A stretch of DNA of 64,000 bases, taken from NCBI GenBank assembly GCA_025210555.1, contig JAOARL010000014.1:1-64000 (forward strand), read 5' to 3'. Within the stretch, counting starts at the first letter, position 1. Every line of letters starts with the position of its first letter. Shown here piece by piece: positions 3,947 through 50,212 of this stretch. The notes beneath the pieces are model-generated. The model did no database searches, had not been told where the DNA came from, and was given only the letters and a program-made list of their open reading frames with translations. The position numbers were made by a program, and so were the translations under genes. The stretch is from Clostridia bacterium (GTDB lineage: Bacteria > Bacillota > Clostridia > Lachnospirales > JAOARL01).

Positions 3947-5057
3947 AGATTTAAAGATTAATGAAAATATAATAAGGGCAGTAGCCGAAATGGGATATAA
4001 TGAACTTACAGAAATACAAAAGGACGTAATTGGACCTGTATTATCTGGAAGAGATGTAGTAGGACTTGCAAGTACAGGTACAGGAAAAACGGCAGCTTTT
4101 TCTATTCCTATAATAGATATGCTGTTAAAAGATAAAGAAAATAGCCAAGAGTATAATGCTATTAAAGCCTTAGTATTAACTCCAACAAGAGAACTTGCAA
4201 TACAAGTAGGGGAAGATATTGAAAGCTATGCTAAGTATATAGATATAAAAGCTGGAGCTATATATGGTGGAGTAACACCTAAAAGACACATTAAAGTTAT
4301 TAAAAGAGAACCCAATATATTAGTGGCTACTCCAGGTAGACTTTTAGATTTAATAGGAAAAGAAGCTATAGATTTAAGTAATGTAAGTATGCTAGTTATT
4401 GATGAAGCAGATAGAATGCTTGAAAAAGAAATGTTAAAAGACGTTAAGCAAATAATAAAAGAACTACCTAATAAGAAGCAGAACTTATTATTTTCAGCTA
4501 CAATGCCTAAAGAGATAGAAAAACTTGCTAATTCATTATTAAATAATGCAATTAAAGTAGAAGTAAAGGATAATATAAATAGTGATAATAAAATAAAAGA
4601 AGTAATATATCATGTAGATGAAACAATAAAAACAATGCTTCTTATTGATCTGTTAAAAGAAGAAGAATTTGAGTCTATATTAATATTTACTAGAACAAAG
4701 AAAAAGGCTGATAAGGTAAGTAAGGCCATAAATATAGCTAATATACCAGGTATGGTATCAAAAGCTATCCATAGTGATAAGAATCAATCTGAAAGAGAAA
4801 AAGCTATGGAAAAGTTTAAAGCTGGAGATGTTAAAATACTTGTAGCTACAGATATAGCAGCAAGGGGAATAGATGTAAAAGGTTTATCGCATGTTATAAA
4901 TATGAATGTTCCTAATGTACCTGAAACTTATATACATAGAATAGGAAGAACAGGAAGAGCTGGAAAAGAAGGTATAGCTATAACTTTTTGTAGTGACGAT
5001 GAAGAGGAATACTTAGATGGTATTACTAAAATGAGAGGTAATAATGATGGAAAGTAA
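3927..5057 (+). CDS. DEAD-box RNA helicase
   Basis: An ATP-dependent RNA helicase of about 376 residues, essentially just the two-domain core without the C-terminal extensions of CsdA/DbpA types. Motifs in order: STGTGKT (I, from about 49), PTRELA (Ia), TPGR (Ib), DEAD at 159-162, SATMP (III), ATDIAARGID (V) and HRIGRTGR (VI). Such proteins remodel RNA during ribosome assembly or mRNA decay. The ATG at 3927 has GGGAG at a fitting distance and overlaps the upstream gene by 20 bp; ATG 3936 is an alternative. The Nudix gene start overlaps its end by 14 bp, so all three are probably co-translated. Confidence 0.92.
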   Translation: MKEMVFKDLKINENIIRAVAEMGYNELTEIQKDVIGPVLSGRDVVGLASTGTGKTAAFSIPIIDMLLKDKENSQEYNAIKALVLTPTRELAIQVGEDIESYAKYIDIKAGAIYGGVTPKRHIKVIKREPNILVATPGRLLDLIGKEAIDLSNVSMLVIDEADRMLEKEMLKDVKQIIKELPNKKQNLLFSATMPKEIEKLANSLLNNAIKVEVKDNINSDNKIKEVIYHVDETIKTMLLIDLLKEEEFESILIFTRTKKKADKVSKAINIANIPGMVSKAIHSDKNQSEREKAMEKFKAGDVKILVATDIAARGIDVKGLSHVINMNVPNVPETYIHRIGRTGRAGKEGIAITFCSDDEEEYLDGITKMRGNNDGK

Positions 5058-6874: not shown

Positions 6875-8080
6875 ATGATAAAATCAAATATATGGAAAAT
6901 ATATGCAAAGAATTTTAGTGAAAACTTATTAATAGCATGGGCTGTACATAAATTGTACTTTACACAAGCATTAGGTATAACTATGCAAGAAATGGCTTAT
7001 TTTACACTGGCTATAACTATAGTTCATATTATCTTAGAAATTCCAAGTGGATTTATAGCAGATAAATTAGGATTAAAGAAAACACTTTTAGTGGCTAAGA
7101 CTATAAATATAGCAAGGATATATTTTTATATTAATGCAAAAGGTCTTTTAGATATTGTAATTGCTTATGCAATGTCATCAGTTGCATCTTCTCTAAAAAG
7201 TGGAGCAGAAGAGGCTATGATATATGAATCTCTAAAAGAGGAAAATAGAAAAGAACAATATGAAAAAGTTTTAGGTATGGCCAGCTTAGCTAAAGCAATT
7301 GGGTTTGGACTAGGAATATTTTTAGGTTCAATTATATTTAATGGCTATAATTATAGACAATTGTTTATAATCACATTAATACCTATGAGTATTTCATATA
7401 TACTTTTACTAATACAGAAAGAACCTGATATTGAAGAAAAAAAGGATTCTAGTAACTTGGAATTCAAAAAAGCTATAAAAGAGGCATTTAGAGAATTATT
7501 TTCTAGTAAGCAAATAGTGTTTGTAATAATATATAGCTTTATTGTAAAAGGAATTGTAAGAATTCTAGGACATTATGATGAATTGTATTTAATAGCACTT
7601 TCACTGCCTGTTGTCTATTGGGGAGTTATTAGAAATATATTTAATATATCTGAAGGAATTGGTGGAATCCTTTCTCAGAAATTAAAAGAGCGTTATGGAT
7701 ATAAAAATAATTTCACTGTTATAATAATCATTAGTAGTATATTACTCTATATATTTACTATGAATATAGGGTTAGCTACTATTTTAGTTATGAGTATATT
7801 ATTAATACTTGGTAATATAGGAATTACATTAACATCAGGATATATAAATGACAGAGTATCTTCAAAACTTAGAGCTACGACATTGTCTATTAAAAATTTA
7901 ATATTTTGGATATCATTTATAGGTTTTGATTTTATGTTTGGATTTATATCAGATAGGGAAGGTATTTTTATAGGTGCCAGATTTTTTGCAGTTATAGTAG
8001 CGATTTATATGATATATTATATGAGTTTTAAAAATAAAGTATTAGACAAAGAAAAAACAGTAGAAATGGAAAATATATAG
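6875..8080 (+). CDS. MFS transporter
   Basis: A 401-residue major facilitator superfamily protein with about 12 hydrophobic segments. The loop between segments 2 and 3 has the MFS signature-like stretch PSGFIADKLGLKK (about residues 56-68). Proteins of this look usually export drugs or metabolites by proton antiport, but no substrate is evident. It begins after AGGAG with good spacing. The MATE gene follows 16 bp downstream, so this is probably a two-gene efflux operon. Confidence 0.85.
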   Translation: MIKSNIWKIYAKNFSENLLIAWAVHKLYFTQALGITMQEMAYFTLAITIVHIILEIPSGFIADKLGLKKTLLVAKTINIARIYFYINAKGLLDIVIAYAMSSVASSLKSGAEEAMIYESLKEENRKEQYEKVLGMASLAKAIGFGLGIFLGSIIFNGYNYRQLFIITLIPMSISYILLLIQKEPDIEEKKDSSNLEFKKAIKEAFRELFSSKQIVFVIIYSFIVKGIVRILGHYDELYLIALSLPVVYWGVIRNIFNISEGIGGILSQKLKERYGYKNNFTVIIIISSILLYIFTMNIGLATILVMSILLILGNIGITLTSGYINDRVSSKLRATTLSIKNLIFWISFIGFDFMFGFISDREGIFIGARFFAVIVAIYMIYYMSFKNKVLDKEKTVEMENI

Positions 8081-8096
8081 ATAGTTTGGGGGGAAT

Positions 8097-9476
8097 ATGG
8101 GTAGAGATAAATATATTAAGGAAGTTACAAATATATCATCTCCAATAGTTGTTCAAGAATTAAGCTTAGCTACGATAGCTATGGTTGATGCTGCTATGAT
8201 AGCTAGGCTAGGTAAAGAGCAATTAGCAGGAATTGCAGTAACTAGACCAATACTATGGGTAATAGATGCTTTTATAGCATTTATAATAATAGGTTTGCTA
8301 TCGATATTATCGAGATCAGTTGGACGAAAACAATTTAAGGCTGCAAAAAAGATTTTTGCTAATGCAATTATACTTGGAATAGTTTTTTCATTAATATTCA
8401 CGGGTTTAATGCTAATTAGAATTGATTTAATACCTAAATTTATGGGAGTAAAAGATAATATTCTAGTGTATGCAAATATATATTTGACTTATATCGTAAT
8501 TAGTTTAATGTTTAGATATTTTATAAGAATTTCATCAACAGGAATATCAAGTTATGGGAACACTAAGATAGTTTCAAAAATAAATATAATTATAAATGTT
8601 CTTAATATAGTATTAAATTATTTTTTCATATTTGAAACTAAAACATTTTATTTAGGAGGCATTTATTATATTGTTCCAAGGTTGGGACTTGGAGTGTCTG
8701 GAGCTGCCATAGCTACACTATTATCTCAGATTGTTGGAGCAATAATATTTCTGATATATATTATAAAAAACAAATATATAGATTTAAGACAGTTTAAATT
8801 AGATAAAGAGGTTGTAGATCAAATGTTTAAAGTTGGTATACCTGCATCATTTGATGATACTTTATATTGCTTTGGGTATATTGTATGGTCAAAGTTACTT
8901 GTTGTTATAAACCCTATATTTTTATCAGTTTTTTATATAGTAGATTCTATAGAGGTGTTTTCTAACTCAATAGGTAGAGGTATTGCAAAAGGAACTGGAA
9001 TATTGATAGGTAAAAAAATAGGAGAGAAAGAAAAGAATAAGATTGGCAGTATTTTGCATTCGGGACTTAAAATCACAAGTTTAATTGGAGCAACATTTAC
9101 TCTTGTATTCATATTTTTTGGTAAAAATTTAGTTTATATAATGACCTCAGATTTTGAATTAATACCGCTTGCGACTATAGTTTACTTTTTTGTAGGTATT
9201 TACCAAATAGCATTTAATAGATCAATGATATATGAAGAAGCTTTAAGAGTTACAACAGCAACAAAAAGAACTTTTTTGATAAATATGATTGCTATGTATT
9301 GTATCAGAATTGGAAGTTTGAGCCTATGTATATATATTGGATGCAAAAATATTTATGCACTAGGTATATCTATGGTGTTGTTTCATTTTGTTAGGTATAG
9401 CATGTTCTGGTTGTCTATGAAACTTGAGTTTGATAAGTATGAGACAATCGCTGAAAATACTATTATAATTGAATGA
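8097..9476 (+). CDS. MATE family efflux transporter
   Basis: A 459-residue multidrug and toxin extrusion family protein with about 12 hydrophobic segments. The N-terminal half shows the MATE pattern IVVQELSLATIAMVDAAMI and a GKEQLAGIAV loop, as in NorM/DinF-type proteins that exchange Na+ or H+ for cationic compounds. A GGGGGG ribosome binding site precedes the ATG. It lies directly after the MFS gene and just ahead of the glycosylase-like gene. Confidence 0.87.
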   Translation: MGRDKYIKEVTNISSPIVVQELSLATIAMVDAAMIARLGKEQLAGIAVTRPILWVIDAFIAFIIIGLLSILSRSVGRKQFKAAKKIFANAIILGIVFSLIFTGLMLIRIDLIPKFMGVKDNILVYANIYLTYIVISLMFRYFIRISSTGISSYGNTKIVSKINIIINVLNIVLNYFFIFETKTFYLGGIYYIVPRLGLGVSGAAIATLLSQIVGAIIFLIYIIKNKYIDLRQFKLDKEVVDQMFKVGIPASFDDTLYCFGYIVWSKLLVVINPIFLSVFYIVDSIEVFSNSIGRGIAKGTGILIGKKIGEKEKNKIGSILHSGLKITSLIGATFTLVFIFFGKNLVYIMTSDFELIPLATIVYFFVGIYQIAFNRSMIYEEALRVTTATKRTFLINMIAMYCIRIGSLSLCIYIGCKNIYALGISMVLFHFVRYSMFWLSMKLEFDKYETIAENTIIIE

Positions 9477-14252: not shown

Positions 14253-15776
14253 ATGAGGGGAAATGAAACATTAGATTTAAATCGCAGTATTATTTTTGAA
14301 AAAGATCAATTAGAGAGACTTATAAATAAACATAAAAAAAGAAGATTTTTTGGGAAATTACCATTTTTCAGAAAAGGATATAAATTATTAACAGATACAA
14401 TTGAAGCTAAAAAGGAAATTATAGGTTCACTTGAAGATTTTATTGGTGTTAGAGAGAACACACATGAAGTTCTTGAAAGTGAAACAGAAACATTAACACC
14501 AAAAGGTAGCTTAATGGAAGGTATGCAAGATGATGTTAATCAAATGAGATTATCTAAAAAAGAATTAGAAGCTAGAATTGCAGATATAAAGAAAGTTAAT
14601 AAAGAAATTTTAGCGTTCCAAAAAGTAATAGCTGGAATACATGGTGACCATGTTAGAGATTCACTTGAGCAATCAAGAGATTCTAAAGCTCCAGATTATG
14701 TAGTTGAAGACTGGACACAAGGTAAACATGTAGTTGAGGATTATAATACAAAAATGCAAAAGGTTATAGATGTTTTAAATAAGCACTATATGAATAAAGA
14801 AAACAAATTACTTGCAAATGATGCTCTTAGAATAAATGAGAGTTTTATTGAGTACTTAAATAATAGTAAAGCGGCTAAAGTTATGAAAAGTTTAGTTGAT
14901 AAATGGTCTAAATATAAGAGTGGATATCTAACAAGAGAAAAGGTTTTAGTTAAAGGTGTAGAAAACACAACTAAAATGCTTAATGATATAGACATTAACT
15001 TGAATATTAATGATGAGAATTTAGCTAGTATTAAAGAAGTTATATCAAATAGAATTGTTATTGATAAGATTGATCATGAATTTAATGCTAAAGCTAATGA
15101 TGTAAAAAAAGAGTTTTTTAAAGAAGAAGTAGTTCAAGAAAGAGAACAAGTTATTGGTGAAACAATAACTAATCTTTCAAAAATGGTTATGACAAAAGAT
15201 GAACTTGTAAATGCACTAGATAATTTATTAGAGTTAACAGAAAGTGTTGGTATTGCATCAGCAGAGTTTGTTAATACTAAGAAAGTAGCTAGTACTATTA
15301 AGAAGCATATTAAAGCATCTAACGTTATGAAAACTATATTAAGTAATGATTTATCAGAAGAAGGTTTAATTGAAATGATAAAAGCTAAATATAGCATTCA
15401 TTTAGGTGATGAGATGCTTGTTGAAGTAACAGGTATAGCTAACATCAAAAAGATTATAACTAACAGTGGTAAGAGTATAATTGACAAATATTTAGCGGAA
15501 GAAGTTAAGAGACAATTAGAAGTACTTATGACTATTGAAGAAATGAAAGATAGAGTAATGGGAAGCGAAAGTGGAGACGAAAACTTATTAAGAATTGATC
15601 TTAAGGTTAATGGTCTTGACGAGCTTAACAAAAGACTTGCTGATTTGGATATAGCGTTATATGTTAAAAAATCAGAGCAAATTAAAGGTAAGTATGAAAT
15701 CTCAATTGATAATGCAGCAGTTGAAGCGGATATATCATTTGATATGGAAGAGGAAGAAGAACTTACAGCATCATAA
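14253..15776 (+). CDS. Large helical protein of unknown function
   Basis: A 507-residue protein, Lys/Glu/Asn rich, with long amphipathic helical stretches (about 70-130 and 270-420) suggesting coiled coil, a basic patch KHKKRRFFGKLPFFRK at about 26-41, and a very acidic tail MEEEEELTAS. No signal peptide, membrane helix or known motif is seen. I chose the ATG at 14253 because AGGGGGA lies 6 nt upstream and the promoter occupies the sequence before it. A strong promoter and own terminator suggest an abundant structural or binding protein. I do not recognise the family. It heads a block of unknown genes reaching 19.7 kb. Confidence 0.75.
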   Translation: MRGNETLDLNRSIIFEKDQLERLINKHKKRRFFGKLPFFRKGYKLLTDTIEAKKEIIGSLEDFIGVRENTHEVLESETETLTPKGSLMEGMQDDVNQMRLSKKELEARIADIKKVNKEILAFQKVIAGIHGDHVRDSLEQSRDSKAPDYVVEDWTQGKHVVEDYNTKMQKVIDVLNKHYMNKENKLLANDALRINESFIEYLNNSKAAKVMKSLVDKWSKYKSGYLTREKVLVKGVENTTKMLNDIDINLNINDENLASIKEVISNRIVIDKIDHEFNAKANDVKKEFFKEEVVQEREQVIGETITNLSKMVMTKDELVNALDNLLELTESVGIASAEFVNTKKVASTIKKHIKASNVMKTILSNDLSEEGLIEMIKAKYSIHLGDEMLVEVTGIANIKKIITNSGKSIIDKYLAEEVKRQLEVLMTIEEMKDRVMGSESGDENLLRIDLKVNGLDELNKRLADLDIALYVKKSEQIKGKYEISIDNAAVEADISFDMEEEEELTAS

Positions 15777-44601: not shown

Positions 44602-44673
44602 GCGTGAGTGGCTCAGTGGTAGAGCATCTCGTTGCCAACGAGAGGGTCGCGGGTTCAAGTCCCGTCTCACGCT
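44602..44673 (+). tRNA. tRNA-Gly (GCC), target of integration
   Basis: Acceptor stem GCGTGAG / CTCACGC with discriminator T, anticodon GCC at 44634-44636 in TCTCG/CGAGA. Its 3' half (from the anticodon loop on) is repeated at 47007 and 49260, showing that this gene is the attachment site for the units downstream. Confidence 0.95.
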
Positions 44674-44675
44674 TA
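44632..44675 (+). repeat. Attachment-site core copy A, within tRNA-Gly(GCC)
   Basis: The 44-bp 3' half of tRNA-Gly(GCC), from TTGCC of the anticodon loop to CGCTTA. Copies B (47007-47050) and C (49260-49303) differ at two positions each. Confidence 0.85.
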
Positions 44676-44723
44676 GAGTAGTAAGGGTTGTAGCGATTGT
44701 GAGTTTTTGAAAAAGCAAAAACT

Positions 44724-44741
44724 TCTAACCTAAATCTAACC
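44724..44741 (+). other. Paired TCTAACC sites, element 1 left end
   Basis: TCTAACC at 44724-44730 and 44735-44741, 11 bp apart start to start. The same pair in the same spacing recurs at 46953, 47100 (variant TCCAACC/TCTAACG) and 49133 (variant TCTAATC/TCTAACC). Spacing near one helical turn fits arm-type binding sites of a tyrosine recombinase. Confidence 0.55.
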
Positions 44742-44745
44742 ATGG

Positions 44746-44778
44746 ACAACATATTTCTAACGAATATGTTGTTTTTTT
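44746..44778 (+). terminator. Terminator of the tRNA operon, supplied by element 1
   Basis: A perfect 10-bp stem ACAACATATT / AATATGTTGT with loop TCTAACG and a T7 run. Repeated at 47122-47154 in element 2. Confidence 0.85.
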
Positions 44779-44936
44779 GTGTCTAAAAATATTGTAAATA
44801 AAAGCAAAGTGTGAATTGCAAAGCTCGTTTTATACGAGATACTAAAAAATGTTTGATTGCTCTTTTTTAAATGAACATTAAGCTGTATAATTATATAAAG
44901 TACTAGGCGAGGGTAATAAAATTTGAGGAGGATAAT

Positions 44937-45098
44937 ATGGTTAAATGTAAAAATTGTGGTAGAGAAGTAGAGCCACATAGAGAATTTAGTATGTTTTGGT
45001 TTGTTGTTTTCATACTATTATTCTTTCCATTAGCTATAATGCAAATAATTATAGCGCCTAAAACTAAGTGCCCAGCTTGTGGCAAGAAAGTATATTAA
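44937..45098 (+). CDS. Zinc-ribbon peptide with one membrane segment
   Basis: A 53-residue protein. CKNC at residues 4-7 and CPAC at 44-47 form a split zinc ribbon flanking one hydrophobic helix (about 20-40). The ATG follows GAGGAGG. Such zinc-ribbon/membrane peptides are common but without assigned function. First cargo gene of element 1. Confidence 0.65.
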   Translation: MVKCKNCGREVEPHREFSMFWFVVFILLFFPLAIMQIIIAPKTKCPACGKKVY

Positions 45099-45127
45099 TT
45101 ATAATAAGATTAGAAAGAAGGACAGCT

Positions 45128-45310
45128 ATGATAAGTGTTAAATTTCAGAATGAAGATGGTACAATTAATGTTGCAAAAGAAGTAAATGATGAGTTACTGA
45201 AAAGAATAATGAATGCAAATATGAAGATAATATATAAGGGCGAAGAATATTTTGTGGTAAGCTCAGGATTCGATATAACAACAGGAAAAGTTATTGCTTG
45301 GATTGAATAA
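45128..45310 (+). CDS. Small protein of unknown function
   Basis: A 60-residue protein starting at ATG 45128 with AAGGA upstream. It reads as a small beta-rich domain (MISVKFQNEDGTINV ... GEEYFVVSSGFDITTGKVIAWIE). The longer in-frame version from 45068 overlaps the zinc-ribbon gene and is less likely. No family recognised. Part of the element 1 cargo. Confidence 0.5.
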   Translation: MISVKFQNEDGTINVAKEVNDELLKRIMNANMKIIYKGEEYFVVSSGFDITTGKVIAWIE

Positions 45311-45314
45311 CAAA

Positions 45315-45446
45315 ATGATAGGGTTGTTATTTGGGCTGTTATTATTAGTTATGTTGTTAATGGTGGCAGAGATTGTAAAAGGAGTAGTATTGGTAATACC
45401 AATATTAGTTGTTTTGATATTAATAAAAGCATTCACGATTAAATAA
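45315..45446 (+). CDS. Hydrophobic 43-residue peptide
   Basis: ATG 45315 to TAA 45446 encodes a very hydrophobic peptide (IGLLFGLLLLVMLLMVAEI, then VVLVIPILVVLILIKAF), two membrane segments around a single Glu/Lys turn. It begins 4 bp after the preceding stop, so re-initiation could drive it; no separate ribosome binding site is visible. Small double-membrane peptides next to ATPases can be toxins or defence effectors; that is only a possibility here. Confidence 0.45.
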   Translation: MIGLLFGLLLLVMLLMVAEIVKGVVLVIPILVVLILIKAFTIK

Positions 45447-45482
45447 TTAAGTGATTTTAAAGTTATTTCAAAAAACAAACTC

Positions 45483-45516
45483 GAAAAAGTGGCATAGAAT
45501 TCAATGCTGCTTTTTC
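45483..45516 (+). terminator. Probable terminator before the KAP gene
   Basis: A 13-bp stem GAAAAAGTGGCAT / ATGCTGCTTTTTC with two G-U pairs and an 8-nt loop; the T-run is inside the 3' arm. Confidence 0.5.
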
Positions 45517-45575
45517 AATATATAGTACAAAAGCTTAATAATATAGATAGAACTTTAAAATAAAGGGAGGTTTTT

Positions 45576-46943
45576 ATGGCAAAAAGTACATCGTTTAAAG
45601 ATGACAAATTAAGAAGGGAAAATTTTGCAAATCAACTTAGTAAAATTATAATTAAAAGTAGAGAGTATAAATTAAATGATTCTTTAGTTATTGCATTAGA
45701 TTCAGGTTGGGGAACAGGGAAAACAACTTTTATTGATATGTGGAGTAATAATTTGGAAAAGAATAATGAATTATTATGTTTGAAATATAATGCCTGGGAG
45801 CATGATGATTGGAATTCAGCTTTAGTTACAATAATACATGAACTAACAGGAGTACTTAATGACAAAACACTAAAAACAGGATTAAAGAAAGCAGGAAATA
45901 AAGTCTACAGAACAATGAGAGTTGCGGGTACTAAAATCACCAAAGATATTTCTTTTGGACTAATAGAAAAGTGTACAGGGATAAATGTTGCAAATTTAGG
46001 TGAGGAAATTATTAATGAGCTCAAAAATGAAGGTGAAAATTCAATTTTAGATGATTATAAAAAATATGTTGACTCAAAATCATCATTTAAGAAGGTTTTA
46101 GAAAAAATTTCTAAAGAAAAAAAATTAGTTATTTTTATAGATGAGTTAGATAGATGTAGACCTAATTATGCGATTGAGGTTTTAGAGACTATAAAGCATC
46201 TTTTTGACATAGAGAATCTTGTTTTTGTAGTAAGTTTGGATATGCAACAATTAAGTCATTCCATAGCTACAATATATGGAAATGATATGGACTCTGCGGG
46301 ATATTTAAGACGTTTTTTTGATATGCACGTAAAAATACCTGCTCCTGAAACGAGAGAATACTTAGATGTATTAATTGAAAAAAATAAAATTGATATTAAT
46401 GGAAATTTGACGGAAAAAATAGAGTATATATTTTCGGCTTTAAGAATGACGCTCAGAGACATGGATATACTAATGAAGAATATGAAAATTTTAATAGATG
46501 TAGTTTTAGAAGATAGTACTGGAGATAAAATGAATGAATTATATATTTTTATGATGAGCCTAAAATATAAAGAACCACGAGTTTATAATATGTATTTCGA
46601 TGAAAGTGTATCGCATAATGATTTTGCTAAAGAGATTAATAAGTTTAAAGTTAGTGAAAATATTCAAGAAGAAATTATAGGAAAGAGAAGTATATATTTA
46701 GATAGATCGCCATTAAGTATGGATGAGACTAATAGCATTTTAAGTTATGATGAAAATTCAAAAAGAATAATCATAAAAAGAGATAATGGTTTAGCAGTTA
46801 GTTTAGATTTGATTACATTTTTAAATGACAAAAAATTAAATAGGATTATGAGTTCAAAAGAAGTAAAAAACAATCCCTTGATATTGGGAATGAAGGTATC
46901 AAAATTTATAGAGAGAAAAATTGAATTATTTGATATAAACTAA
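45576..46943 (+). CDS. KAP family P-loop NTPase
   Basis: A 455-residue ATPase of the KAP family (STAND-related). Walker A GWGTGKTT at 44-51, YNAWEHDD after it, Walker B FIDELDRC with D189-E190, and the following NYAIEVLETIKHLF ... VFVVSLD, which is characteristic of KAP proteins. The usual inserted membrane helices are not obvious. KAP NTPases are recurrent in anti-phage defence and phage exclusion. It fills most of element 1 and has its own GGGAGG site. Partner or effector is unknown; the small membrane peptides upstream are candidates. Confidence 0.85.
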   Translation: MAKSTSFKDDKLRRENFANQLSKIIIKSREYKLNDSLVIALDSGWGTGKTTFIDMWSNNLEKNNELLCLKYNAWEHDDWNSALVTIIHELTGVLNDKTLKTGLKKAGNKVYRTMRVAGTKITKDISFGLIEKCTGINVANLGEEIINELKNEGENSILDDYKKYVDSKSSFKKVLEKISKEKKLVIFIDELDRCRPNYAIEVLETIKHLFDIENLVFVVSLDMQQLSHSIATIYGNDMDSAGYLRRFFDMHVKIPAPETREYLDVLIEKNKIDINGNLTEKIEYIFSALRMTLRDMDILMKNMKILIDVVLEDSTGDKMNELYIFMMSLKYKEPRVYNMYFDESVSHNDFAKEINKFKVSENIQEEIIGKRSIYLDRSPLSMDETNSILSYDENSKRIIIKRDNGLAVSLDLITFLNDKKLNRIMSSKEVKNNPLILGMKVSKFIERKIELFDIN

Positions 46944-46952
46944 AATTAAACT

Positions 46953-46970
46953 TCTAACCTTTTTCTAACC
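46953..46970 (+). other. Paired TCTAACC sites, element 1 right end
   Basis: TCTAACC at 46953-46959 and 46964-46970, followed by CCAGAGAGT, 37 bp before attachment copy B. The same layout precedes copy C at 49133-49150. Confidence 0.55.
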
Positions 46971-47006
46971 CCAGAGAGTGCACTAGCTGCTTGTCACCGA
47001 ACCACA

Positions 47007-47050
47007 TTGCCAACGAGAGGGTCGCGGGTTCAAGTACCGTCTCGCGCTTA
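47007..47050 (+). repeat. Attachment-site core copy B (tRNA-Gly 3' half)
   Basis: A 44-bp copy of the 3' half of tRNA-Gly(GCC) with a C to A change in the T loop region (CAAGTACCG) and one acceptor-stem change. The tRNA 5' half is missing, so this is not a functional tRNA. Confidence 0.85.
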
Positions 47051-47099
47051 GTAAAATCAAAGGGTGTAGTGATTTTTGGGTTTTGCAAAAACAAAAACT

Positions 47100-47117
47100 T
47101 CCAACCTAAATCTAACG
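47100..47117 (+). other. Paired heptamer sites, element 2 left end
   Basis: TCCAACC at 47100-47106 and TCTAACG at 47111-47117, same 11-bp spacing and same position relative to the terminator as in element 1. Confidence 0.5.
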
Positions 47118-47121
47118 GTAG

Positions 47122-47154
47122 ACAACATATTTCTAACGAATATGTTGTTTTTTT
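47122..47154 (+). terminator. Copy of the tRNA-operon terminator in element 2
   Basis: Identical stem ACAACATATT / AATATGTTGT and loop TCTAACG to 44746-44778. It suggests every element carries the terminator that replaces that of the disrupted tRNA operon. Confidence 0.8.
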
Positions 47155-47333
47155 GTTTTTTATCAGAATGGTGTATAAAGATGCAAAAAAGTGATAAGGT
47201 TAAAATCGAGAATTAATGATAAAGAAAATATGAATATAGAAGCAAAAAAAGTGAACAGAAATTTGACTTGTTCAAAAAAGGAGCGTATATTTAACAAAGA
47301 GAATATTATTACTAATAAACATTATCATGAAGT

Positions 47334-47882
47334 TTGGGGTGTGGATATTTTATATCAAATAAATTGTTTGAAAAAGTATTAGAAAGAGAGTTTGTAAAAT
47401 TAAGAGAAGAAGCAATAGAACTAAGAAGAGAGATTAAAGAAGAATTAAATGAAAGAGGAATGCTAAGAAGCAGTTATGCTATAAATTCTATTTACAAAGA
47501 ATTAGGCAAGTTCATTGAAGGGAAAATAGAAAGGTATATTGTAAGTTTAAGAGAATTAAAAGTAAATAATATATATAGTAAGAGGAAAATAAAAAAGTCA
47601 TATGATTTAATAATAGAAGATTATAAGACATATGTAAAAGAAATACTTGATGACTGTAAAAAAGATCTTAAAAAGATGAGAATGTCGGAAGGTGATTATG
47701 AGAATCTAATAGAGAATGGTGAAGAGAGAGTAAAATCTTTAAGTAAAGATTTAAATAGTCAAGTTGATATTTTAAGTGAATTACTATCAGATTTAGGTGT
47801 TAAATATGCTAAGAGTGCAAGTTTTATAGCTGCAATTGCGCTTTTGGTTTCAATTTTGGCATTATGTGGGTTAATAAAATAA
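47334..47882 (+). CDS. Coiled-coil protein with C-terminal membrane anchor
   Basis: About 182 residues, nearly all helix-forming and Lys/Glu rich (coiled coil from about 10 to 150), ending in a single hydrophobic segment SFIAAIALLVSILALCGLI. It would be a tail-anchored membrane protein with its body in the cytoplasm. The TTG at 47334 has no clear ribosome binding site, so the true start is uncertain and could lie a few codons inside. It ends 19 bp before the AbiF-like gene and is probably co-transcribed. No family recognised; a third component of the module or an independent effector is possible. Confidence 0.6.
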   Translation: MGCGYFISNKLFEKVLEREFVKLREEAIELRREIKEELNERGMLRSSYAINSIYKELGKFIEGKIERYIVSLRELKVNNIYSKRKIKKSYDLIIEDYKTYVKEILDDCKKDLKKMRMSEGDYENLIENGEERVKSLSKDLNSQVDILSELLSDLGVKYAKSASFIAAIALLVSILALCGLIK

Positions 47883-47901
47883 AAGTGGGAGGATTGTAAC
47901 A

Positions 47902-48882
47902 GTGGTTAAAGGATTTAAAACATACGATATGCAAATAGAATATTTGAGGAAAGAAAAAAACATAATATGTGACACATTGAATGATAGGGATATTTTAGTT
48001 AAGTATGGATATTTTAATGTGGTTAATGGATATAAAATGCCATTTGTTGCAAGTAAAGACGAAAATGGAAATCATACATATGTAAAAGGTGTTAGAATAG
48101 CAGATATATTAGAAGTTAAATTGTTCGATGATGAATTAAGACATGTGCTATTTAAAAATATTACTAAAGTTGAGGCGGAAGTTAGAACAGTTGCGGCATA
48201 TGCTTTTGATTTATCTAATGAAAAAGATAATAAAAATTGGCAAGATAATTCAGCTTATGATGATGAGTATTTTGAAGTGAAAAAAATCGTAGAGGTAGTT
48301 AAGTCTTTAATGAGTGAAGTTAGTACTTCAAGAAGTAATTACTTGAGACACTATCAAGAAAAGCACAGTACAATACCTACATGGATACTAGTTAAGGTTA
48401 TTAATTTTAATACATTTATAGACTTTCTTAATATTACTCGAAAAGATGTTAAGGATTCAATTTGTGATTTGTATGGACTAAAGAATAGAAAAGATTATTC
48501 GGATTATAAATTATTACAAGGAAGTCTACATTGGATTAGAAAAATAAGAAACGCTTGTGGGCATAATGAGAGAGTGTATGACATGCAAATGGGTGGTAGA
48601 ATAGATTTAAAATATTTTGATACACTTCCAAAGACTTATTCAGTTAAGCGAGGTCAAAATAAAACGATGCTAGATTTACTTGTATATATGAGATATTATT
48701 TAAGTGATGATGATTATATAAGAATGCTAGAGGAAATTGAAGGGTTATTAAGAGGCTTAGAGGAAAAAATTGAGAAGTATGCATTTGAAATTATTAGAAG
48801 TAAAATGGGAATAAAGTCACTTGGACATTTTGAAGAATTTAAAAAATTAAAAAAAGAAATAAAATATTGTGATTTTTGTTGA
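47902..48882 (+). CDS. AbiF/AbiD-type (Abi_2 family) HEPN protein
   Basis: A 326-residue protein of the Abi_2 family of abortive-infection proteins. The family pattern is clear: an N-terminal LNDRDILVKYGYFNVVNGY, the middle RHYQEKHSTIPTW (149-161) and the HEPN motif R216-N-A-C-G-H221 in WIRKIRNACGHNERVYD. R-x4-H is the ribonuclease signature of HEPN domains, also found in Cas13. The GTG start has GGGAGG 9 nt upstream. The stop codon overlaps the -35 box of the first of two small RNAs. In this family the protein is the toxic RNase and an adjacent RNA can be the antitoxin or guide-like partner; activity here is inferred. Confidence 0.85.
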   Translation: MVKGFKTYDMQIEYLRKEKNIICDTLNDRDILVKYGYFNVVNGYKMPFVASKDENGNHTYVKGVRIADILEVKLFDDELRHVLFKNITKVEAEVRTVAAYAFDLSNEKDNKNWQDNSAYDDEYFEVKKIVEVVKSLMSEVSTSRSNYLRHYQEKHSTIPTWILVKVINFNTFIDFLNITRKDVKDSICDLYGLKNRKDYSDYKLLQGSLHWIRKIRNACGHNERVYDMQMGGRIDLKYFDTLPKTYSVKRGQNKTMLDLLVYMRYYLSDDDYIRMLEEIEGLLRGLEEKIEKYAFEIIRSKMGIKSLGHFEEFKKLKKEIKYCDFC

Positions 48883-48906
48883 CTATTATAAAAAAGGTGT
48901 TAAAAT
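48879..48906 (+). promoter_or_regulatory. Promoter of small RNA copy 1
   Basis: TTGACT at 48879-48884 (overlapping the abiF stop codon) and TAAAAT at 48901-48906, 16 bp apart. The start point would fall at about 48913, the first base of the conserved 60-nt repeat. Confidence 0.75.
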
Positions 48907-48912
48907 AAATAG

Positions 48913-48972
48913 ACAGAGATATCCCATGGACTTGGGATGAAGAATCGTTTCCGTAGGGAGGCGATTTTTTTA
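48913..48972 (+). ncRNA. AbiF-associated small RNA, copy 1
   Basis: A 60-nt unit with a promoter ending just before it and a terminator ending it. Hairpin 1: ATCCCA (48921-48926) pairs with TGGGAT (48933-48938) around TGGACT. Linker GAAG. Hairpin 2 is the terminator: AATCGTTTCC pairs with GGAGGCGATT around a short loop, then T7. A C-rich 5' arm and G-rich 3' arm in a short stem recalls Cas13 repeat hairpins. It differs from copy 2 only at two loop bases, so structure is conserved. No start codon or frame is present. Confidence 0.75.
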
Positions 48973-49021
48973 TGTAAATCTATAGAAGGGATGAGTTGAT
49001 TTTTTTAAATAAAAATGTTAG

Positions 49022-49027
49022 TATACT
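49022..49027 (+). promoter_or_regulatory. -10 box of small RNA copy 2
   Basis: TATACT at 49022-49027 lies just ahead of the conserved repeat. The only TTGAtt candidate (48996) is 20 bp away, too far for a standard promoter, so the -35 box is weak or absent. Confidence 0.45.
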
Positions 49028-49030
49028 TAT

Positions 49031-49090
49031 ACAGAGATATCCCATGAACTTGGGATGAAGAATCGTTTCCATAGGGAGGCGATTTTTTTA
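49031..49090 (+). ncRNA. AbiF-associated small RNA, copy 2
   Basis: 58 of 60 bases equal copy 1. The two differences are G to A in the loop of hairpin 1 (TGAACT) and G to A in the loop of the terminator hairpin; both stems are unchanged. It starts 118 bp after copy 1. The sequence between copies is not conserved. Confidence 0.72.
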
Positions 49091-49132
49091 TTTTAAATTA
49101 TAGTAATTAGGTGCTAAAAAGATTGTAAAGTT

Positions 49133-49150
49133 TCTAATCTTTTTCTAACC
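49133..49150 (+). other. Paired heptamer sites, element 2 right end
   Basis: TCTAATC at 49133-49139 and TCTAACC at 49144-49150, followed by TTAGAGAGT, paralleling 46953-46979. Confidence 0.5.
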
Positions 49151-49259
49151 TTAGAGAGTATTTTAGATGCCACTTAACTTGTGGATAAAGTGATTAAAAC
49201 CCTTGAAATATGGTAAGAGAGTACGAAAGAGTATGTTATCTGCTTGTCACTGAACCACA

Positions 49260-49303
49260 TTGCCAACGAGAGGGTAGCGGGTTCAAGTCCCGTCTCGCGC
49301 TTA
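49260..49303 (+). repeat. Attachment-site core copy C (tRNA-Gly 3' half)
   Basis: A 44-bp copy differing from copy A by GTCG to GTAG and one acceptor-stem base. Beyond it a degenerate version of the tRNA terminator (ATAACATATT ... GTGTTAT, 49339-49375) remains, suggesting this is the original chromosomal right junction. Confidence 0.82.
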
Positions 49304-50183: not shown

Positions 50184-50212
50184 AATCGTTTCCAAGTGGA
50201 GGCGATTTTTTT
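50184..50212 (+). terminator. Terminator homologous to the small-RNA terminators
   Basis: AATCGTTTCC / GGAGGCGATT with loop AAGT and a T7 run: the same two arms as the terminators at 48942 and 49051, but without the upstream CCCA/TGGG hairpin. Confidence 0.85.

Follow-up and report, generated by a model that had tools for sequence, protein, structure and literature searches.

The window, a 64,000-nt stretch of DNA analysed here as a whole, carries an abiF gene that is followed by two nearly identical small RNA genes, and the locus raises the question of how these RNAs relate to the HEPN ribonuclease encoded beside them. We consider it likely that they belong to a type III-like toxin-antitoxin or abortive-infection module, in which a 3'-encoded, self-promoted RNA antitoxin would neutralise AbiF.

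An abiF gene followed by two RNA genes

The features on which the following analyses are based are listed below.

47902..48882, + strand: abiF, Abi_2/AbiF HEPN ribonuclease of 326 aa, putative toxin (Pfam, PADLOC, phmmer, AlphaFold2 model)
48547..48564, + strand: HEPN catalytic motif R216-N-A-C-G-H221
48879..48906, + strand: promoter of RNA copy 1, -35 TTGACT (48879-48884, overlapping the abiF stop), 16-nt spacer, -10 TAAAAT (48901-48906), from sequence
48913..48970, + strand: RNA copy 1, leader ACAGAGAT, hairpin 1 (48921-48938), GAAG, terminator hairpin and T-run; covariance model R1, 57.0 bits
48996..49024, + strand: promoter of RNA copy 2, -35 TTGATT, 17-nt spacer, -10 TAGTAT, from sequence
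49031..49088, + strand: RNA copy 2, with the anatomy of copy 1; covariance model R1, 59.0 bits

The abiF product was assigned to Abi_2 by Pfam (E = 2.4e-38; 132.7 bits, above the curated cut-off of 25.6) and to AbiD by PADLOC (1.3e-39), and phmmer matched it to PbAbiF of structure 8vz6, a dimer with bound ncRNA (7.6e-11), with the HEPN motifs aligned. A PDB fold search with the AlphaFold2 model (pLDDT 90) returned 8vz6 as the single match at E ≤ 0.001 (E = 1.5e-8; TM 0.67/0.73) and revealed no significant likeness to Cas13, for which the best match had an E value of 0.71. The initial annotation had named R216-x4-H221 together with RHYQEKH; the former is the catalytic motif, with R216, N217 and H221 invariant in 34 AbiFs, whereas the R of RHYQEKH (residues 149-155) is not conserved.

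Each of the two 58-nt RNA genes downstream of abiF has its own promoter and terminator, as had been proposed, and the rest of the initial description of the locus was also confirmed, including the unit starts, the hairpin 1 stem (ATCCCA/TGGGAT), the GAAG linker, the terminator with its T-run, and the abiF stop codon TGA (48880-48882) inside the -35 box of the first RNA promoter. Direct comparison bore out that the units start 118 bp apart (48913 and 49031) and differ at two positions, both in hairpin loops, and the promoter of copy 2 is closer in sequence to the clade consensus than that of copy 1. Both RNAs are predicted to fold stably (z = -5.0 and -5.6 for copies 1 and 2; none of 200 shuffles equally stable). 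Across the genome of 1.56 Mb, the whole unit is confined to the abiF locus. One more copy of the terminator hairpin, the third of three genome-wide, lies at 50184-50210, where the same sequence terminates the neighbouring kinase gene; since this copy lacks hairpin 1, AbiF specificity is limited to the GAGA-hairpin 1-GAAR part.

The surrounding region (44674-49301) consists of two tandem integrase-less islands after a tRNA-Gly(GCC) gene (44602-44673), each of which is closed by a duplicate of the 3' half of the tRNA (about 47003-47048 and 49256-49301) and has TTCTAAC repeats near its ends. The first island carries a KAP NTPase gene (45576-46943, PDC-S20), and the other carries orf182, abiF and the RNAs. 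Similar islands were seen at a tmRNA gene (812-1157) in locus L131 (G000:C5:32500-50000), where the 3' end of that gene occurs again at 15630-15651, similar stretches lie at 1150-1297 and 4422-4567, TTCTAAC-type arms are present, and a single tyrosine integrase (8074-9153) is encoded along with KAP-like NTPases.

One AbiF clade and its downstream RNA

An initial scan of the genome contigs with a single AbiF protein as query gave no match. The first six related AbiFs found (about 40-44% identity) all had the same RNA downstream, and we then ran the covariance-model search that the initial annotation had suggested, using model R1, built from eight sequences, on 34 genome loci, 7 viral loci, Lachnospira eligens and the window. 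The RNA was present in all 38 testable clade loci, defined as those with an abiF extending well past the HEPN motif and enough downstream sequence, in each case on the abiF strand, at 32-230 nt (median 72) downstream of the gene, so the proposed association passed this search. Matches to R1 were strong in the great majority of these loci, three scored E values of 0.002-0.004 (L046, L050 and L068), and one RNA was recognised by eye (L067). The clade loci include near-duplicates (L051/L053, L047/L071 and L083/L084), and four of the 38 have a frameshifted abiF (L073, L074, L076 and L077), which may reflect assembly error. Two loci were placed outside the 38 because their sequence ends too early (L075 and L081). 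At L072, whose AbiF is disrupted immediately behind the HEPN motif, no RNA was found in >1 kb downstream.

The comparison of these loci also revealed the conserved parts of the RNA gene. A -35 and a -10 element at fixed spacing precede 35 of the 38 abiF-linked RNA genes, compared with 1.9% of random positions in phage loci. Hairpin 1 covaries strongly, with 98.2% of cells paired and 34 double-sided changes (10.8 in shuffles, 0-8 in slid controls), counted in alignments that were fitted to the model structure and include the near-duplicate loci. In the AbiF tree, the proteins accompanied by the downstream RNA group on a single branch (SH-aLRT 100, 27/27 rows). The RNA is thus real and linked to AbiF. 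The other candidate partner, orf182 (47334-47882), is not conserved beside other AbiFs, and no conserved element was seen upstream of abiF within the clade except at L064, where a U2-type RNA (see below) lies directly upstream of abiF (1761-1801) in addition to the usual downstream RNA.

Being small, structured, independently transcribed and adjacent to a toxin gene, the RNA might be taken for an antisense (type I) regulator of abiF mRNA. We regard this as extremely unlikely, given that the RNA and abiF do not overlap and that its pairing with the start region of its own abiF has an energy no better than that of swapped pairs (-16.1 versus -16.4). The tandem copies had also been read as a repeat-array-like arrangement, a reading that did not survive the comparison: none of the 37 other loci has a second copy, and the locus in the window holds no repeat-spacer array, just two separate promoter-to-terminator units and no further copies. 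The same evidence bears on the view that AbiF uses the RNA in the manner of Cas13, as a guide or trigger sensor for recognising a target RNA. Such a role would accord with the published kinship of AbiF and Cas13 (PMC12373285; PMC12737573) and with the strict pairing of the RNA with its AbiF clade, but we judge it very unlikely, as the conserved GAGA, hairpin 1 and GAAA run straight into the terminator and leave no spacer-like variable segment, there is a single RNA per locus outside the window, and the fold match to Cas13 is not significant.

We further examined more distant AbiF lineages and found the window-type RNA at none of 29 loci. At 22 of 28 distant loci from the same order or class, another RNA-like element with promoter- and terminator-like features lies directly upstream of abiF, and by motif these elements fall into three types (U1 = 14, U2 = 5 and U3 = 3), none of which matched Rfam at gathering scores. 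The motifs, from loci L017-L044, are AGTGATC...GAAGCC for U1, CTCCGGTGTCCTTCGGG for U2 and GCGTACGACGCCCTGGCC for U3. Together with the downstream RNA of the window clade, this distribution suggests that AbiF lineages tend to own separate RNAs. The window RNA is not a member of Rfam family RF03085, whose covariance model gave no match to it even at E ≤ 10; the positive control phiC2 was matched, and it was the sole match across the AbiF loci searched. Rfam skipping-rope RNAs lie near two AbiF loci (L016, 1065-1134; L023, 1186-1269), possibly by coincidence.

RNA copies without an adjacent toxin in bacteria and phages

To survey the RNA beyond abiF loci, we searched 392 genomes from the order and 397 from Lachnospiraceae with model R2 and counted places at E ≤ 1e-3; two weak matches in the order (L095, 31.5 bits; L096, 29.8 bits) were left out as instances of this RNA. 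The matches adjoined abiF in thirteen genomes and abiF fragments at two places (L116 and L120). At seven bacterial places (L090, L097, L114, L117, L119, L122 and G038), the examined flank (up to 1.5 kb, shorter at contig ends) contained no abiF. Among these, G038 has three identical RNA copies, counted once, and no Abi_2 at all, L097 is the second copy in its genome and lies after tuf, and L117 carries a U2-type RNA as well (E = 4e-12). According to the initial annotation, units scattered without abiF would count against the antitoxin idea. Solitary copies do exist, but within the 38 testable clade loci every AbiF that extends well past the HEPN motif was accompanied by the RNA; an RNA seen without toxin, together with the lack of any intact toxin seen without RNA, fits an antitoxin, and hence the solitary copies do not overturn the idea.

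Viral contigs were searched with a pattern for the RNA core, which matched 12 contigs. The reversed pattern matched none, and chance matches were accordingly rejected as their source. AbiF is present in two of the 12, while a search for Abi_2 in the other ten (L135 and L137-L145), several of which are fragments, gave no match anywhere on the contigs. A terminator-like hairpin, a feature outside the search pattern, directly follows GAAA in all ten toxin-less contigs, whereas none of these ten copies passes the promoter test passed by 35/38 abiF-linked copies. In three contigs (L137, L140 and L142) a late-type regulator (phrog_36) stands on one side of the RNA and terminase genes on the other, and in L138 the RNA is two genes ahead of a terminase small subunit gene. 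The copies in L143 and L145 have the upstream gene no more than a few bases away and a head maturation protease-like gene as a neighbour, and those in L135 and L139 adjoin an integrase gene. The leader that separates late regulator from terminase in L137 holds a U2-type RNA as well, downstream of the window-type copy (E = 3.1e-6). Two more patterns for 4-base-loop variants, one of them one base too long, found nothing on viral contigs.

These places without an adjacent AbiF (seven bacterial, ten viral), four of them viral copies near late-regulator or terminase genes, would also fit an AbiF-independent role, in which the RNA would serve the phage or host in its own right and simply hitchhike beside AbiF. 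We consider this very unlikely, because it accompanies every testable AbiF of the clade, without exception on the same strand and downstream of the gene, and tracks a single AbiF clade. For the viral copies, a phage RNA mimic is a known means of escape from ToxIN (phiTE, PMC3475682), and it is possible, with confidence somewhat short of even, that phages carry AbiF antitoxin RNAs with no recognisable promoter as decoys that would disarm AbiF; the two RNA types in L137 would then look like a collection of antitoxins against several AbiFs. Alternatively, the viral RNAs may be leftover prophage cargo or have an unrelated leader function. The solitary phage copies may thus point to a testable arms race, with phages disarming AbiF by making its antitoxin.

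Proposed mode of action and comparison with known systems

The antitoxin reading, which we favour as probable, can be phrased as a sequence of steps. AbiF would act as a dimeric HEPN RNase whose free form slows or stops growth, as characterised AbiFs suggest. Transcription from a dedicated promoter immediately behind abiF would yield a small RNA that folds into a short hairpin bordered by conserved GAGA and GAAA, together with a terminator hairpin, and that, again by analogy with characterised AbiFs, would bind the protein and keep it inactive. The mechanism is most likely direct RNA binding that blocks the HEPN dimer (PMC12373285; PMC12737573). A falling RNA supply, for example during phage takeover, might then free AbiF to cut RNA, and the second copy in the window probably raises the antitoxin dose.

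The type III-like antitoxin inferred in the initial annotation is supported in the form of AbiF plus a dedicated structured RNA with strict co-occurrence in the clade. Like ToxIN and AbiQ, which are type III systems, the module would pair an RNase toxin with a dedicated small RNA, and as in such systems the putative toxin was seen with the RNA in all 38 testable clade loci while the RNA is sometimes found alone. The ToxIN/AbiQ antitoxin, however, is upstream of and co-transcribed with its toxin and consists of multiple repeats in one transcript that are cleaved into units, whereas the RNA gene here is downstream in all clade loci, mostly self-promoted (35/38), and has one unit per locus, or two separate units in the window. 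The ToxIN/AbiQ toxin fold is unrelated to AbiF.

The locus also resembles AbiFCd/RCd22 of C. difficile (PLoS Genet 2025, PMC12373285), which likewise combines an Abi_2 HEPN protein, with an R-x4-H essential there, and an adjacent structured RNA with a sigma-A promoter and terminator. AbiFCd is toxic but loses its toxicity when R202/H207 is mutated, and it is neutralised by an ncRNA that it binds (PMC12373285). RCd22 (Rfam RF03085) is encoded upstream, is co-transcribed and has two motifs per transcript, and both binding and neutralisation were shown (PMC12373285); the window RNA is instead downstream, self-promoted, limited to one hairpin 1 unit per transcript and without a match to RF03085, and its own promoter implies that abiF is not under an upstream attenuator as in RCd22. 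With PbAbiF-AbiFr (Zilberzwige-Tal et al., Cell 2025), as represented by 8vz6 and by the accounts in PMC12373285 and PMC12737573, the protein shares the AbiF fold and an aligned HEPN motif.

The link between AbiF, adjacent ncRNAs and Cas13 that the initial annotation had mentioned does exist in the literature (PMC12373285; PMC12737573). Cas13 and type VI CRISPR share HEPN RNase chemistry and a proposed ancestry with AbiF, but the present locus lacks both a CRISPR array and spacers, each chain carries a single HEPN motif, and the fold match is not significant. We provisionally conclude that the kind of system, AbiF plus RNA, is already known and that the novelty lies in a clade with a distinct downstream RNA, which is provisionally new as an RNA class and may already sit in the models of Zilberzwige-Tal et al. 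2025. These findings add an AbiF clade with a distinct, compact, 3'-encoded RNA partner, and the finding that the RNA partner and its position vary between AbiF clades is relevant to the question of how a Cas13 guide could have arisen from an RNA antitoxin.
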